A stretch of DNA of 64,000 nt. Origin: Methyloterricola oryzae (GTDB lineage Bacteria; Pseudomonadota; Gammaproteobacteria; Methylococcales; Methylococcaceae). Location of the stretch: the NCBI RefSeq assembly GCF_000934725.1, contig NZ_JYNS01000007.1, forward strand, positions 124,001 through 188,000. Reading direction: 5' to 3'. A program made the position numbers and the translations under genes. A model generated the notes under the pieces. That model was not told the origin of the DNA, searched no databases, and was given only the letters and a program-made list of their open reading frames with translations. Shown piece by piece: positions 16,386 through 61,533 of the stretch; positions within the stretch are counted from its first letter, which is position 1, and the number at the start of each line of letters is the position of its first letter.

Positions 16386-16979
16386 CTACAATGCGCCTTT
16401 GGTCGATGGAAGAATGCCTTGCATGCGCTCATCACGCTCAAGCGCCATGCGCATGGCCCGGCCAAATGCCTTGAAGATCGTCTCTGCCACATGGTGGGCA
16501 TTGACGCCTTTCAGGCTGTCGATATGCAACGACACTTTAGCATGGTTCACGAATCCCCGGAAGAATTCCAGCAAGAGATCCACATCGAAATCGCCGATAC
16601 GCGCCCTGGGGAAGCTGACATCGTAGGCCAGCCCTGGCCGGCCGGAGAAATCAATCACCACACGCGACAAAGCCTCGTCCAGCGGCACGTATGAGTGCCC
16701 ATAGCGGCGAATGCCGCGTTTGTCGCCCACAGCGCGATCGATGGCCTGCCCCAGGGTAATACCCACATCCTCCACCGTATGGTGCGCGTCGATGTGCAGA
16801 TCGCCCGCGGCCTTCACGGTCAGATCGATCAACCCGTGCCGAGCGACTTGATCGAGCATGTGCTCGAGGAAGGGTACGCCTGTCTCGAAGCGGCCGGTTC
16901 CGGCACCATCAAGATTGACCTGGACAAAAACCTGGGTTTCCAGGGTATCGCGCCTTATTTCCGCCGTACGTTGATCCAT
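16386..16979 (-). CDS. hisB: imidazoleglycerol-phosphate dehydratase (monofunctional)
   Basis: Dehydrates IGP to imidazole-acetol phosphate. With the ATG at 16979 the protein is 197 residues, the standard monofunctional size, starting [16 protein letters not shown]. Metal-binding repeats are visible in [40 protein letters not shown] and [12 protein letters not shown] 33 bases upstream is in frame but would sit almost at the inferred transcription start. No HisB phosphatase domain is fused. First gene of the operon as seen here; hisG, hisD and hisC are not in the window. Confidence 0.96.
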
Positions 16980-17025
16980 TTCACCACTGATCTGCGGTTT
17001 GTTGAACTGCAATTGCGAGCTTATT

Positions 17026-17054
17026 ATGATAGTGATTTCTTATGTATTGATAAA
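17026..17054 (-). promoter_or_regulatory. candidate sigma-70 promoter of the his operon
   Basis: On the minus strand TTTATC and TATCAT are spaced by 17 bases in an A/T-rich island about 47-75 bases upstream of the hisB ATG. It points away from the sRNA and back-to-back with its UPS element. Confidence 0.42.
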
Positions 17055-17089
17055 CCGCCCTACTCAAACCTGTGAAGCCGGTCACATCG

Positions 17090-17107
17090 CGTAAGCAATT
17101 GCTTACA
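17090..17107 (+). promoter_or_regulatory. GacA-type upstream activating sequence (UPS box)
   Basis: The 18-base palindrome reads CGTAAG-CAATTG-CTTACA, one base from the TGTAAG-N6-CTTACA consensus bound by the GacA/UvrY/LetA response regulator upstream of RsmY, RsmZ and CsrB-type RNAs. Its centre lies about 60 bases before the inferred sRNA start, the spacing seen for rsmY-like genes. Confidence 0.8.
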
Positions 17108-17156
17108 TCAAGTTCGGCGATTTCCTGCAGACGCACGCTGTTGCTAAGCTCAGAAT

Positions 17157-17280
17157 TACAACCGTCGCCAGACAGGAAAAGGATTTCTAGGAGTATTCAA
17201 CAGGACGTTGCCAAGGACTGGACCTGTTAAGCCAACCAACAGGCGATAAGCCTCCTACAGGATGTATGGAGGCTTTTTTA
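17157..17280 (+). ncRNA. CsrA/RsmA-sequestering small RNA candidate (RsmY/RsmZ type)
   Basis: An intergenic stretch of about 124 bases with eight GGA triplets, six in the AGGA context (17174, 17180, 17189, 17202, 17214, 17259) plus 17220 and 17268. It ends in a Rho-independent terminator whose loop carries UACAGGAUGU, nearly the optimal CsrA-binding sequence. A -10-like TAAGCT (17145-17150) with a poor -35 follows the UPS box at the expected distance. Size, motif density, promoter element and terminator all match GacA-controlled RNAs that titrate CsrA/RsmA. The exact 5' end is inferred. No coding frame with a start and Shine-Dalgarno fits. Confidence 0.78.
17248..17280 (+). terminator. Rho-independent terminator of the sRNA
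   Basis: Perfect 8-bp stem AAGCCTCC / GGAGGCTT with a 12-base loop, followed by a T-run. The 3' arm and the loop each contain a GGA, so the terminator doubles as a CsrA-site hairpin. Confidence 0.85.
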
Positions 17281-17292
17281 TTGGGCTTTTGC

Positions 17293-17943
17293 CTACTGAT
17301 CCTCTAGAAACTCCTTGATTCCCTGCCTCGTGTCGGCCCTGAGCTTCTTTGAGGACTGCAGTTTCTTCAGCGTGCTGAGCACCTGCTTAAGACGGGGCTC
17401 ATTCGCCTCCATATCCGACACTAGGCTTTCGATGGCGTCCAGGGCGCTCACCTGTACGTCCTCATCCTGGTCTTCCAGAGCCTTCAGCAGGGCCGTCATG
17501 ATGCCGTCGGAAAGATTCTCGAACTGACCAAGGCTTTGCGCAGCGGCGCTGCGCACATCCGCGCTCGAGTCGCCGGCAAGGGTGATGAGCAACTGTTGCT
17601 CGGCCTCCGCCGTCGGGAAGGCGGCCAGTTGTTCCACCCCGGCAACGCGCTCCTCTGGATCGGTACTCTTAAGGGACTCCAGCGCCTCCAGCACCTGCTC
17701 GGCATCGATCTGCGCCTCGTCCTCCTCATCTTCCGGCGTAGGCGCCTGAACCGCCTGAGCCTGAATTTCCTCGGCATGAGGCAGCACCGGAGGCGCCGGC
17801 GCGGCCGCGGGCGTTGCCTTCGCCACTGGCGCGGGCGAAGACGACACCTCCATTTCATTCAGGCTTTCGCTTTGGAGAATGCGATAGACGACCAGTCCGC
17901 CCGCTACCAGCGTGACCAGCAGGACTATAATAAAAATTCGCAT
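17293..17943 (-). CDS. membrane-anchored HEAT-repeat protein
   Basis: 216 residues: one N-terminal membrane helix (about 3-20), an Ala/Pro-rich linker with an acidic stretch (PEDEEDEAQ), then alpha-helical HEAT-like repeats such as RVAGVEQLAAFP, DVRSAAAQSLGQF and DVQVSALDAIESL. A protein-interaction scaffold is likely; partner unknown. The ATG at 17943 is chosen over a TTG four codons upstream. It converges on the sRNA terminator. Confidence 0.8.
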   Translation of the reverse strand: MRIFIIVLLVTLVAGGLVVYRILQSESLNEMEVSSSPAPVAKATPAAAPAPPVLPHAEEIQAQAVQAPTPEDEEDEAQIDAEQVLEALESLKSTDPEERVAGVEQLAAFPTAEAEQQLLITLAGDSSADVRSAAAQSLGQFENLSDGIMTALLKALEDQDEDVQVSALDAIESLVSDMEANEPRLKQVLSTLKKLQSSKKLRADTRQGIKEFLEDQ

Positions 17944-17989
17944 GGAACGACCCAAAACCTCGAATTATGTAATGAAGATTTGTAGCCCT

Positions 17990-24930: not shown

Positions 24931-25336
24931 CGAGTCGGCCAGACAGTCGCTGCCCGCCAAAAGCGGGTGGAGGAAAGTCCGGGCTCCACAGGGCAGGGCG
25001 CCAGGTAACGCCTGGGGGGCGCGAGCCCACGGAAAGTGCCACAGAAAATATACCGCCCCGCAGCGATCATCCGCACGGTCCCGGAGTCATCCGGGGCCGC
25101 CGTTCAGGCGGTCGCTGCGGGGTAAGGGTGAAATGGTGCGGTAAGAGCGCACCGCGCTCCCGGCAACGGGAGTGGCAGGGTAAACCCCGCCCGGAGCAAG
25201 ACCAAATAGGGGGGCATTGGGTTCGTCCCAAACGTGCGGCCCGCACGGCTCCCGGGTAGGTTGCTTGAGGCATGCGGTGACGCATGTCCCAGATGAATGA
25301 CTGTCCACGACAGAACCCGGCTTATCGGCCGACTCC
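24931..25336 (+). ncRNA. rnpB: RNase P RNA (type A)
   Basis: Catalytic RNA that trims tRNA 5' leaders. The P1 helix is visible as GAGTCGGCC (24932-24940) pairing with GGCCGACTC (25327-25335). Conserved cores are present: GGAGGAAAGTCCGGGCTCC near 24968, AGGGTGAAATGGTGCGGTAAGAGCGCACC near 25125, and CAGAACCCGGCTTATC near 25313. A -10-like TACACT at 24920-24925 sits seven bases before the 5' end. The length of about 405 is normal for bacterial type A. Confidence 0.97.
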
Positions 25337-25376
25337 ACTTCCCTTTCACCACCCCTTGAGCGCAGTACCGGAGGCC

Positions 25377-31119: not shown

Positions 31120-32730
31120 TCAACCGGCGACGCAGCGGTTGCGGCCTTCGTGCTTGGCGCGGTAGAGGCAGCGGTCGGCGCGTTCGAATAACTCTTCCAG
31201 GCTATCCTCGGACTGATACTCGCTGATGCCGCAGGAAATCGTGATTTGCACCGGCTTTCCTTGCGAGTTGAAGCCGCAGTTCTCCACCTTGGCACGGATG
31301 GCGTCAGCCACCTTCAGCGCCGCGCCGCTGTCGGCGCCGGAGAGGATCATGACGAATTCCTCGCCTCCGAGCCGTGCGACAAAGTCGGTTTCGCGGATCG
31401 AGGAAGCCAGTTCCTCGCCGATGGTGATCAGCGCCTTGTCCCCGGCGTTGTGGCCGAATCGATCGTTGATGCTCTTGAAGTGGTCGATGTCCCAGACCAG
31501 CAGGCAGAACGGGTGTCGAAAGCGCTTCCAACGCGACACCTCCTGTTCGAGACGCTCGTTGTAGGCCAGGCGGTTGGGCAGGCTGGTGAGACAGTCGCGC
31601 ATGGCCATGCTGTGTTCCACCCGCAGGCGCGTGCGCAGTTCCGCAGTCTCCGACTCCAGATCCTGCAAGCGCCCGGTGAGCTTGTCCATCTCCAGTTCAG
31701 CCTCGCGGGCGCGTTCCAGTTCCTGCTCCCGTGCACTGGCCAGGAAGCCCGAGATGACGTCCAGCCTTGAGCTGAGCAGTAGCTTGAGGGAGGCCAGGTC
31801 GGTGGCGTTGCTGGTGGTGCTGCGCAGGCTTTCCACATGGTCCACCACCGTGGCATGCATAGTGGCCGAGCCCTCTTCCGCTGCCTTGGTCAGCTCCTGA
31901 ACACCCACGGTCTGGTGTTCCAGTTCGATCAGTTTGCGGGTGAGTTCCGAGAGAAACTGCTCCAGGGACTTCTGCTCGACCTCCGCGCTGCTCTTGAGCT
32001 CCGCCAGGAATTTCACCACGTCCTGCAGCAGATCCATGAAGCCTTCGACGTCGATGTCCCGGCGCAGGCGCGACAGCAGCCGGTTGGCCTGGGACTGCGC
32101 CGTCAGGGGCGTATCCACCGCTTCCAGGAGCATGATCAGATTGCGCAGGATGGCGTCGAGATCGATCTTGCGCTCGACCTTTTTCCCGGCGCCGAACAAA
32201 CGCCCCAGCAGCCCCGGCTTGCCACTCTTGTCTTCGCTGGCTGCGCGCGCGGCGGCGACGCTTTCCAGCAATTTGCCCAAGTCCGCGAAGGCAGCGGCAT
32301 CGCCACCCAATGCACCTTGTTCTGCGCGCTGACGCCATGCGCTGAGCTGGGTCTGCTCATCGGCACGCAATAACTGCGTGGAGATGAAGTCGAACAGTTT
32401 GGCGTAGTCACCCGCGGCAGCATGCGGCTTGGGTTCCTTCGTCGCATCGGCCGTCTGCTTGACGATCTCGAACAGGGCACTGGACACCTCGTCCAGTTCC
32501 ACCTGCATCGCTTCGCTGAGGGTTCCCTTGCGTACCAGGTTGCGAATCTGGGCGAGCTGCGGCTCGATAGTGGAATCGAGACCTATGGAAGCCGCCGCAA
32601 CCCGCGAGATAACCCGCACCAGCAGACGTTCCGCCTCCAGCCAGCGGGCCTTGCGCTGCTCCATTTCATCGAGCACCGTCGCGTAACGGTCACGCCAGTA
32701 GTTGGCCTCATTCTGCTTTGGGCTGTTCAT
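31120..32730 (-). CDS. diguanylate cyclase (GGDEF) with helical N-terminal sensor region
   Basis: 536 residues. The first about 370 are predicted helical and coiled, with a SiaD/DgcA-like regulatory character; no membrane helix. The C-terminal GGDEF domain is intact: active site GGEEF 455-459, inhibitory I-site RETD 446-449, DIDHFKSINDRFGH and ISCGISEY. It should make cyclic di-GMP with product inhibition. The ATG overlaps the stop of the upstream EEP gene (TGATG), so the two are coupled. Confidence 0.93.
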   Translation of the reverse strand: MNSPKQNEANYWRDRYATVLDEMEQRKARWLEAERLLVRVISRVAAASIGLDSTIEPQLAQIRNLVRKGTLSEAMQVELDEVSSALFEIVKQTADATKEPKPHAAAGDYAKLFDFISTQLLRADEQTQLSAWRQRAEQGALGGDAAAFADLGKLLESVAAARAASEDKSGKPGLLGRLFGAGKKVERKIDLDAILRNLIMLLEAVDTPLTAQSQANRLLSRLRRDIDVEGFMDLLQDVVKFLAELKSSAEVEQKSLEQFLSELTRKLIELEHQTVGVQELTKAAEEGSATMHATVVDHVESLRSTTSNATDLASLKLLLSSRLDVISGFLASAREQELERAREAELEMDKLTGRLQDLESETAELRTRLRVEHSMAMRDCLTSLPNRLAYNERLEQEVSRWKRFRHPFCLLVWDIDHFKSINDRFGHNAGDKALITIGEELASSIRETDFVARLGGEEFVMILSGADSGAALKVADAIRAKVENCGFNSQGKPVQITISCGISEYQSEDSLEELFERADRCLYRAKHEGRNRCVAG

Positions 32731-33569
32731 CAGGCCGCCGATGCGAGTTGACTTCTCTGGGCCGCCAGATGGAGCGTACCAGGAAGCCGGACGTCCATGG
32801 CGATGGGAAGATGGTCGGAACAGGCAAAGTCGAGTACCCGCACCCTATCCACCGCCAGGCTCGGGGTCACCAGGATGTGATCCAGCATCTTCCGCGGCCG
32901 CCAGCTTGGGAACGTGCCCAGTTCCCACAGGGGCTCGGTAAGCGCCGTCGTACGGGTGAGCAAGCGGATTTCCGGGGAATCGGGACCGCAATTGAGATCA
33001 CCCATGACCACCACATGCGGCAGGCCCCGTATCAGTTCGGCGACAAACGCCAGCTGCTTTAGGCGGGCACGGCGACTGAGGGCAAGGTGCAAGATGCATA
33101 GGTACAGCGCCTCACCCTCGGCACCGCCAAAACACGCCAGCAGCGCCCCCCGGCCAGGCAGGCCAGGCAACTTGTAGTCGTGGATCATCATCGGCCGCAC
33201 GCGGCTAAGCAGTCCGTTGCTGTGCAGGGCGATATTGCCGATGCGGCGGTTGATCTGGTTGTGCCAGTGCTTGAACCCCGCCCGCTCCGCCAGATACTGG
33301 GTCTGAATGACCAATCGGCTGCGGATGCCGCCGCCGTCCACCTCTTGCAGGCCCACGATATCAAAGGGCTTGAGGACTTCAGCGATTCGGTCGAGATTGG
33401 CGAAGCGCCGGCTGGAGGGCAGCACATGCCGCCAACTGCCCGTCACGTATTCGCGGTAACTGCCGGTGCTGATGCCGGTCTGGATGTTGAAACTGGCCAA
33501 GCGTAAGGTCACGCCCGGCGATTCGATGCACGCTTCGGGGGACTGCGGTTCCAGGGCCGGGAGGCTCAT
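32730..33569 (-). CDS. endonuclease/exonuclease/phosphatase (EEP) family hydrolase
   Basis: 279 residues with LRLASFNIQTG, IVGLQEVDGGG (metal Glu), VVMGDLNCGPDS and SDHLPIAMDV (catalytic His), the complete EEP/DNase-I-like catalytic set. No signal peptide. Substrate could be a nucleic acid, phosphoinositide-like or other phosphodiester. Translationally coupled to the diguanylate cyclase. Confidence 0.88.
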   Translation of the reverse strand: MSLPALEPQSPEACIESPGVTLRLASFNIQTGISTGSYREYVTGSWRHVLPSSRRFANLDRIAEVLKPFDIVGLQEVDGGGIRSRLVIQTQYLAERAGFKHWHNQINRRIGNIALHSNGLLSRVRPMMIHDYKLPGLPGRGALLACFGGAEGEALYLCILHLALSRRARLKQLAFVAELIRGLPHVVVMGDLNCGPDSPEIRLLTRTTALTEPLWELGTFPSWRPRKMLDHILVTPSLAVDRVRVLDFACSDHLPIAMDVRLPGTLHLAAQRSQLASAA

Positions 33570-60458: not shown

Positions 60459-61533
60459 GTTGCTGTTCGAGGCTAACGATCACATCTGGGAAGCGGGCTT
60501 CGAAGGCGGCCGCAGCGTGGTGGTCACCCGCCTCGGGCCCGTCGTGCGCGTCGCGCCGCGCCCGGCGCGCTTCATCAAACGCTTCTACCACGAAGTGTTC
60601 GAACTCCCCATCGAGGACTGGGAGATTCCCGTCGAACCTCTGGTGCTGGGCTCGTTCTGCACCGTCTCCGCCAGCGTGTCAGTGCGCTTCCAGCCCACCT
60701 TGCGCTATGCGCGGGACCATCTGGAGGCCCTGCCGGAACTGGGCCGGCATATCCGCCAGAGCCACCACGCCTTGCTGCGCGACCAGGTGGAAGAACACCT
60801 GCGCCGCCTGGAAGCCGACCCCGCCTGGCTGGAACAGGGCTGCGCCACCCACGAGAAGGCCATCGAGCGGGAAATCAACGAGCAGTTGGCGATCCGCTAC
60901 ATCCAGTGCCGCACCCGCTGCAGCATCACGCCCGTTTTCGGATCGCTGGAGGAAATCGAAGCCGCCGCGCCCTGGTCCCGGCACCGGACGCTGTACCTCG
61001 AGATACTCCGCCGTCAACGCGTGGCGGAGGAGCAGGCGCAACAGGAGGCGCACGCGCAGTCCCTGCTCGAGCAGCAGCGTCGGCTAGAGCAGGAGGAACA
61101 ACTCCTCGCCGTCAAACAGCGTGAGGAAACCTTGCGCAAGGTGCGTCTGGAGCAGGAACTGGAGAGCCTGCGTGCCGAATTACGCGTGGAGGAAGCCATG
61201 CAGGACGAGCAGCGGGGCAGCGAGGCGCGCCAGCGGCAGGAACAGATCCGCCATACCGCCCATCTGCGTGAATTGGAACTGGATGCTGACATCAACGAGA
61301 AAACCCGCCGCGCGCAGACCATGGACGACATGGAGGAACACATCAAGCGCGAGATCGAACTGCTGGCCATGGAGCGCCAACGCCTGCTGCTGGAAGAGGA
61401 AGTGCGCGACGTGAAGGTGGCCAAGGCCAAGGGCTGGGTGATCAATGCCAAGAAGCGCTTTCCCCTCGGCGAGGGACGTCACGTCCTGCAAGGGCGTAAC
61501 AAGGACGCTGCCGAGGAAGGCGAGTCCGGCTAG
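60451..61533 (+). CDS. SPFH-like coiled-coil protein, uncharacterised
   Basis: 360 residues. Residues about 15-180 have a Band-7/SPFH-like order: VVTRLGPVVRVAPRPARFI, a strand-rich VEPLVLGSFCTVSASVSVRFQP, then HHALLRDQVEEHLRRLE and AIEREINEQLAIRY. Residues about 190-330 form a Gln/Glu/Arg-rich coiled coil. No membrane helix of its own, so it may be recruited by the upstream membrane protein. The SPFH call is by pattern only. Confidence 0.68.
   Translation: MDELLFEANDHIWEAGFEGGRSVVVTRLGPVVRVAPRPARFIKRFYHEVFELPIEDWEIPVEPLVLGSFCTVSASVSVRFQPTLRYARDHLEALPELGRHIRQSHHALLRDQVEEHLRRLEADPAWLEQGCATHEKAIEREINEQLAIRYIQCRTRCSITPVFGSLEEIEAAAPWSRHRTLYLEILRRQRVAEEQAQQEAHAQSLLEQQRRLEQEEQLLAVKQREETLRKVRLEQELESLRAELRVEEAMQDEQRGSEARQRQEQIRHTAHLRELELDADINEKTRRAQTMDDMEEHIKREIELLAMERQRLLLEEEVRDVKVAKAKGWVINAKKRFPLGEGRHVLQGRNKDAAEEGESG

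Follow-up and report, generated by a model that had tools for sequence, protein, structure and literature searches.

CsrB and CsrC of Escherichia coli titrate CsrA by means of CAGGA-type repeats, with 22 GGA motifs in CsrB (excerpts of PMC7652899), and an 18-nt inverted repeat located upstream of them is bound by UvrY, at about -183 in the case of csrB (excerpts of PMC4682653). RsmY (RF00195) and PrrB/RsmZ (RF00166) are short intergenic RNAs (118 and 133 nt, respectively, as matched in this study) with an upstream GacA-type site (UPS), several GGA motifs, an intrinsic terminator, and a presumed role in the titration of CsrA/RsmA. The distance from the centre of the UPS to the 5' end was about 67 nt for RsmY in the Pseudomonas genome that served as our control, and the UPS of RsmZ lies about 182 nt upstream.

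Here we describe a segment of the window (i.e., the whole stretch of 64,000 nucleotides that was analysed) for which an initial annotation proposed a CsrA-titrating small RNA (sRNA) of the Gac/Rsm type, a reading that comparative evidence now supports. Judging from the sequences compared, positions 17162-17279 very probably encode a free-standing sRNA of the Gac/Rsm (BarA/Csr) type, which would be activated by GacA and would titrate CsrA. Like RsmY and RsmZ, it would be a short intergenic RNA with a UPS, several GGA motifs, its own terminator and a presumed titrating role; with CsrB and CsrC it shares the upstream inverted repeat, the type of repeated motif and the proposed titration of CsrA. 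The UPS is located ~65 nt upstream of a GGA-rich segment of ~117 nt, a spacing comparable to that of RsmY and unlike those of RsmZ and csrB, and the segment holds 8 GGA as against the 22 of CsrB. Unlike RsmY and RsmZ of Pseudomonas, the family described here has its locus between hisB and bipA. The features are as follows:

16386-17012, minus strand: hisB (imidazoleglycerol-phosphate dehydratase; Pfam IGPD), divergent neighbour, of conserved synteny and outside the RNA
17090-17107, plus strand: UPS CGTAAGCAATTGCTTACA, palindromic GacA-type site, seen in the sequence, with the homologous position filled in relatives
17151-17156, plus strand: putative -10 hexamer CAGAAT, placed from the upstream regions of family rows
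17162-17279, plus strand: predicted sRNA of about 117 nt, GacA/CsrA (Rsm/Csr) type, from the covariance-model family, covariation and synteny
17164-17169 and 17242-17247, plus strand: 5' arm (GUCGCC) and 3' arm (GGCGAU) of helix 1, the closing helix, from covariation
17174-17222, plus strand: GGA cluster (17175, 17181, 17190, 17203, 17215 and 17220), from the motif count and the excess over shuffles in the family
17198-17210, plus strand: hairpin 2, CAAC-AGGAC-GUUG, with GGA in the loop and two-sided changes at all 4 pairs
17231-17239, plus strand: near-invariant element GCCAACCAA, not a CsrA motif, from its conservation in both row sets
17248-17279, plus strand: intrinsic terminator whose tip carries ACAGGAUGU, a CsrA-type site, from the sequence, folding and a terminator-loop scan
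17293-17955, minus strand: gene of a HEAT-repeat protein (Pfam HEAT_2/HEAT), convergent neighbour

Anatomy of the segment

The initial annotation described a near-perfect GacA UPS palindrome followed about 50 bases later by a GGA-rich segment, and this description was borne out. Positions 17091-17106 form a perfect 16-nt palindrome, GTAAGCAATTGCTTAC, of the GacA-type UPS, the 18-mer at 17090-17107 has one mismatch to TGTRRGN6CYYACA, and the first helix (17164) begins 57 nt after the end of the 16-nt palindrome. Transcription would be expected to start near 17162-17164; a simple promoter and terminator scan found no sigma-70 promoter directly upstream of the RNA and did not call its terminator.

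The 4.90-Mb genome contains GTAAGN6CTTAC at four places and the backward reading of this pattern at one. At the other three places (L002, L004, and L005) neither a match to our models nor a second copy was found, which speaks for a mere chance meeting of palindrome, GGA-rich sequence, and terminator in the window. Against this stand the conservation over two orders, the compensatory changes, and the near-fixed UPS distance described below; the comparative data in effect refute chance co-occurrence, to which we give hardly any probability. The palindrome at L002:1501-1516 (G000:C1:799585-799600) is UPS-like as well, with AAAGGAGGACCAGGACGTTGCC downstream on the minus strand and CAGGACGTTGCC in common with the sRNA; the new models do not match there, and a 441-aa ORF nearby has by eye the look of a metallo-hydrolase.

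The count of eight GGA, six of them AGGA, was reproduced in 17158-17279. Among 127,756 overlapping 122-nt segments covering both strands of the window, at least eight GGA were present in 0.2% and at least six AGGA in 0.03%. Six or more AGGA recur just once elsewhere, near 61050 (plus strand). At most seven GGA are available, since the one at 17268 is buried in the stem of the terminator, with an unpaired probability of 0; when the sequence is folded singly, the one at 17175 is for the most part paired. The folding energy of the single sequence was modestly better than that of shuffles (z -2.1; -0.3 to -5.0 in five relatives).

The terminator is built as AAGCCUCC-UACAGGAUGUA-U-GGAGGCUU followed by a U tract (17248-17279). 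Its loop had been called almost the ideal CsrA site: the CsrB-type CAGGAUG is indeed present in ACAGGAUGU, but ACAGGAUGU is one base shorter than the core of the SELEX site RUACARGGAUGU (excerpts of PMC7652899).

The window was also said to hold an active-looking and a dead diguanylate cyclase. One ORF (31120-32844, minus strand) carries DIDHFKSIND and GGEEF, but two motif scans of the window revealed no second, dead one, and the suggested link of the sRNA to the diguanylate cyclases found no support.

Distribution of the RNA family

A plain DNA comparison provided the first link between the window segment and relatives, with the segment found in 12 of 101 genomes, its own included. Covariance models were built from ten sequences (R1) and, more broadly, from 42 (R2), with the window in both training sets. 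Among 311 Methylococcales genomes, the RNA was found in 49 with R1 and in 58 with R2. One R1 match (L151 of G472, E 8e-4) was treated as false, being devoid of the conserved element and of a UPS in a genome missed by R2.

R2 also found the RNA in 71 of 195 genomes sampled from a larger group, the order of Sedimenticola and Thiodiazotropha (the second order hereafter), where the named carriers, via hisB loci, are Sedimenticola selenatireducens, a Solemya gill symbiont, and two Candidatus Thiodiazotropha. Only three carriers were present among 369 genomes drawn evenly across the class, i.e., the genome of the window, one more of Methylococcales, and G657 of the second order (whose locus is identical with that of one of the two Candidatus Thiodiazotropha), and the family is therefore not universal.

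The window RNA, itself a training sequence, scores 85.2 bits with R2, with helix 1, hairpin 2, GCCAACCAA, and the terminator all present, and one copy was found in its genome by R1 and R2. In the genus that includes G657 (g310), two to five copies are present in most genomes among the matches listed; several copies per genome are also seen in the duplicated siblings RsmX-1 and RsmX-2 (RsmX-2: excerpts of PMC7911923) and in the csrB duplication of Vibrio (PMC6262261). Unlike those siblings, Thiodiazotropha-type genomes carry tandem arrays of four copies in about 1.1 kb, at five loci (L196, L197, L205, L206, and L207), and a single copy was found in the genome of the window. In the outermost tandem copies, the GCCAACCAA element is decayed and GGA occurs twice.

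The comparison with RsmY, RsmZ, and CsrB covariance models suggested in the initial annotation gave no match. Rfam 15 returned no Csr/Rsm family for the whole window at gathering scores, none among the six matches to 16900-17500 at E up to 10 (asX2, Phe_leader, and the others being at chance level), and none for eight further family loci at E 0.1; in this, the window RNA also differs from CsrB and CsrC. Bacterial class A RNase P RNA is encoded in the window at 24931-25340 (plus strand; 337 bits). In the Pseudomonas control, where six of eight UPS-pattern loci were scanned with Rfam, RsmY and RsmZ were recovered beside two UPS-like sites; the looser UPS pattern used there occurred at 8 sites vs 23 for its backward reading, so the pattern alone is unspecific in that genome. 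R2 gave nothing better than E 0.4 on the Pseudomonas loci, and nothing of weight at RsmY or RsmZ, which, read by eye, are unlike the new family in having neither GCCAACCAA nor a GGA in the terminator loop. The lack of an Rfam match places the RNA outside the RsmY, RsmZ, and CsrB sequence families, while the proposed function still fits best.

The best reading of these sequence comparisons would be an undescribed sRNA family, not in Rfam, that is common to methane oxidisers and sulfur-oxidising symbionts. Literature on CsrA, GacA, or small RNAs together with methanotrophs or Thiodiazotropha showed no such RNA in the titles and abstract openings among the matches listed. CsrA-regulating sRNAs were reportedly predicted by Kulkarni et al. 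in 2006, and a Methylococcales RNA may be among them. The main text of a 2017 follow-up to that work contains neither a 'Methylo' word nor hisB in the passages covered (PMC5568370). The family comes with a model able to annotate it and with a recurrent hisB-bipA locus.

Conserved structure, UPS position, and gene neighbourhood

Covariation was examined in a first set of 63 distinct rows and in a second set of 40 distinct second-order rows, with identical sequences entered once in both and in the terminator-loop scan. L172, which is the same locus as L047, was left out of the counts of UPS, GGA, element, synteny, and terminator loops. In the first set, 43 of whose 64 rows were R2 training rows, 95.5% of the cells of both helices are paired, with two-sided changes in 46 cells vs 7.8 in shuffles and 0-12 when the pairing was slid; at slide -3, 82.6% of its fewer cells (265) were still paired. 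In the second set, in which two rows are identical to training rows, 92.9% are paired and 72 cells show two-sided changes vs 28.1 in shuffles, with two of five covariation measures not above shuffles (two-sided-change pairs, 31/500; further pair types, 301/500). Helix 1 is paired in 97.4% of first-set cells, with compensatory C-G to U-A changes, and in 100% of second-set cells; the values for hairpin 2 are 92.5 and 79.5%. Both alignments were adjusted to the model, a bias in its favour. Among model-free sequences, L010 and L012 carry GTCGTC...GACGAC where others have GTCGCC...GGCGAY.

Two further pairings were considered. Just 53% of cells supported the pairing of a third hairpin, CC-AAGGAU-GG, which was dropped from R2, and an RNAalifold alternative, pairing GG of AAGGA with CC of GCCAACC, had zero compensatory changes in the columns concerned; we claim neither.

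The expected retention of GGA motifs and UPS in relatives was observed. Rows of the first set have 4.7 GGA on average vs 2.0 in shuffles, although few (2-4) are found in some members (g40 rows, g22 rows, and last tandem copies). GGA is inside the terminator loop in all 40 distinct rows of the second set and in 18 of 63 of the first, 12 of them in the window's own family (12 of 14), in a scan where 10 of the 63 rows fell under the hairpin cut-off, mainly through trimming at an early T run. The exact ANGGAN hexaloop was not found among the folded terminator loops of either set; AAGGAU or AUGGAU would be common there if the closing A-U pair opens. Just before the closing helix, at least eight of the nine letters of GCCAACCAA are kept in 58 of 63 first-set and 37 of 40 second-set rows.

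Because the UPS lies outside the covariance models, its position is an independent check. Counted from the first helix, offsets 63-65 gave a UPS score of at least 9 out of 12 in 54 of the 63 distinct first-set rows, the window included, while control offset triplets gave 0.6 on average and 7 at most; scores of at least 11 were found in 25 of the 63 rows vs at most 2 at control offsets. In the second set (39 rows for this count, L204 being without upstream sequence), a score of at least 10 within 40-130 nt was found in 34 rows and in none of 44 backward-read stretches, the usual offsets being 64-67 and 86-87. The half-sites alternate between TAAG/CTTA and TAGG/CCTA. Nine of the 63 first-set rows have no good UPS at the standard offset. 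The UPS of five Cycloclasticus-type rows (L176-L180) lies further upstream than that offset, and no convincing UPS was found upstream of L137, L131, L141, and L161. GacA is present in three of the four genomes that carry these last rows.

The synteny with hisB, proposed as a check in the initial annotation, holds in relatives. Among named genomes, the best match to HisB of the window is from an uncultured Methylococcaceae record (82% identity). hisB adjoins all eleven foreign loci of the plain DNA comparison (ten at once; L120 on second look). Among 63 loci (66 minus the repeats L019, L020, and L021, which are L178, L175, and L180), hisB is divergent within 900 nt upstream in 49 and bipA/typA convergent within 400 nt downstream in 39; both are present at 27 and one or the other at 61. 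The ancestral order was likely hisB-sRNA-bipA, and in the window the HEAT-repeat gene occupies the place of bipA.

The intergenic position, and a terminator that could serve a convergent pair, would also suit an attenuator, 3' UTR, or terminator that acts in cis for hisB or the gene downstream. However, since hisB points away from the RNA and the downstream gene towards it, neither gene has its leader or UTR on the plus strand; the RNA stays where the downstream neighbour changes from bipA to the HEAT gene; and one Thiodiazotropha copy (L150) lies away from both genes, others being in tandem arrays. We consider such a cis-acting role very improbable.

Regulators and proposed mechanism

Both csrA and gacA, whose presence the initial annotation presupposed, were found in the genome, together with two BarA/GacS-like kinases. 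csrA is present in a single copy; its sequence is canonical, and a tRNA-Ser gene comes after it. The GacA orthologue has UvrY/SirA/GacA as its best NCBIfam model, with 269.8 bits at a cut-off of 280 and 153 for the next model. The two long hybrid kinases score 512 and 510 bits, under the BarA cut-off of 890, and their matches span positions 150-904 and 153-911 of the 920 of the BarA model.

A GacA orthologue (E 1e-50 or better) is present in 162 of 311 Methylococcales genomes, i.e., in 51 of 58 RNA-bearing genomes vs 111 of the 253 others (Fisher p = 5e-10, uncorrected for relatedness). At this threshold no match was found in 7 of the 58, and six g9 genomes among the matches listed have neither GacA nor the RNA. 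G265 (98% complete) and G030 (93%) have a UPS of 12/12 and no GacA match, and G079, G193, and G239 have GacA and no convincing UPS. G013 (L137; 100% complete, 3 contigs) has kept the RNA but lacks both a GacA match and a UPS, possibly reflecting a rewiring of the RNA to another activator.

The features of the functional class are present in the window and its genome, namely a UPS upstream, several GGA in loops or single strands, an own terminator, and genes for CsrA and GacS/GacA. From these we infer that the RNA would be transcribed, depend on GacA, and bind and titrate CsrA in the following manner. Phosphorylated GacA would bind the UPS ~65 nt upstream and switch transcription on. In the folded RNA, GUCGCC/GGCGAY would close a frame that contains AGGA sites, some single-stranded and some in hairpin loops, and a further AGGA site would stand at the tip of the terminator. 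These sites would bind CsrA dimers and thereby draw CsrA off its mRNA targets.

The GCCAACCAA element and the terminator-loop GGA of many members exceed what titration needs. A real GacA-activated sRNA might act mainly by base pairing through GCCAACCAA, possibly with Hfq, with the GGA motifs secondary. In its favour, GCCAACCAA is among the most conserved stretches and is no GGA site, and the element is predicted to pair with the host csrA leader at -28.1 kcal/mol, GGGUUGGCUUGA, ~60 nt upstream of csrA (L001 reverse strand, G000:C1 near 328.1 kb), being complementary to it. Among 2000 shuffled leaders, 3 equalled this duplex, as did 0.1% of 3000 stretches taken at random from the window; the pairing was sought after the fact, in one genome, with the leader's own folding ignored. 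The GGA motifs, far above shuffles and located in covarying hairpin loops and at terminator tips, are as titration predicts, and we regard action mainly by base pairing as quite unlikely.

It is conceivable, though rather doubtful, that the family is bifunctional and self-wired: GGA motifs would titrate CsrA, GCCAACC would pair with the csrA leader, and, through the site in the terminator loop, CsrA would be able to affect how the RNA that antagonises it terminates or how stable the 3' end of that RNA is. If true, one Gac-activated RNA would act on both CsrA protein and csrA mRNA.

Returning to the titrating sRNA, our preferred reading, the comparison raises the question of why such an RNA keeps GCCAACCAA, a non-CsrA element, nearly unchanged over two orders. 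If this reading holds, the family would be the RNA arm of the Gac/Csr system in Methylococcales and in sulfur-oxidising symbionts such as Thiodiazotropha, and would link the Gac system with the flow of carbon in organisms that are used to convert methane.
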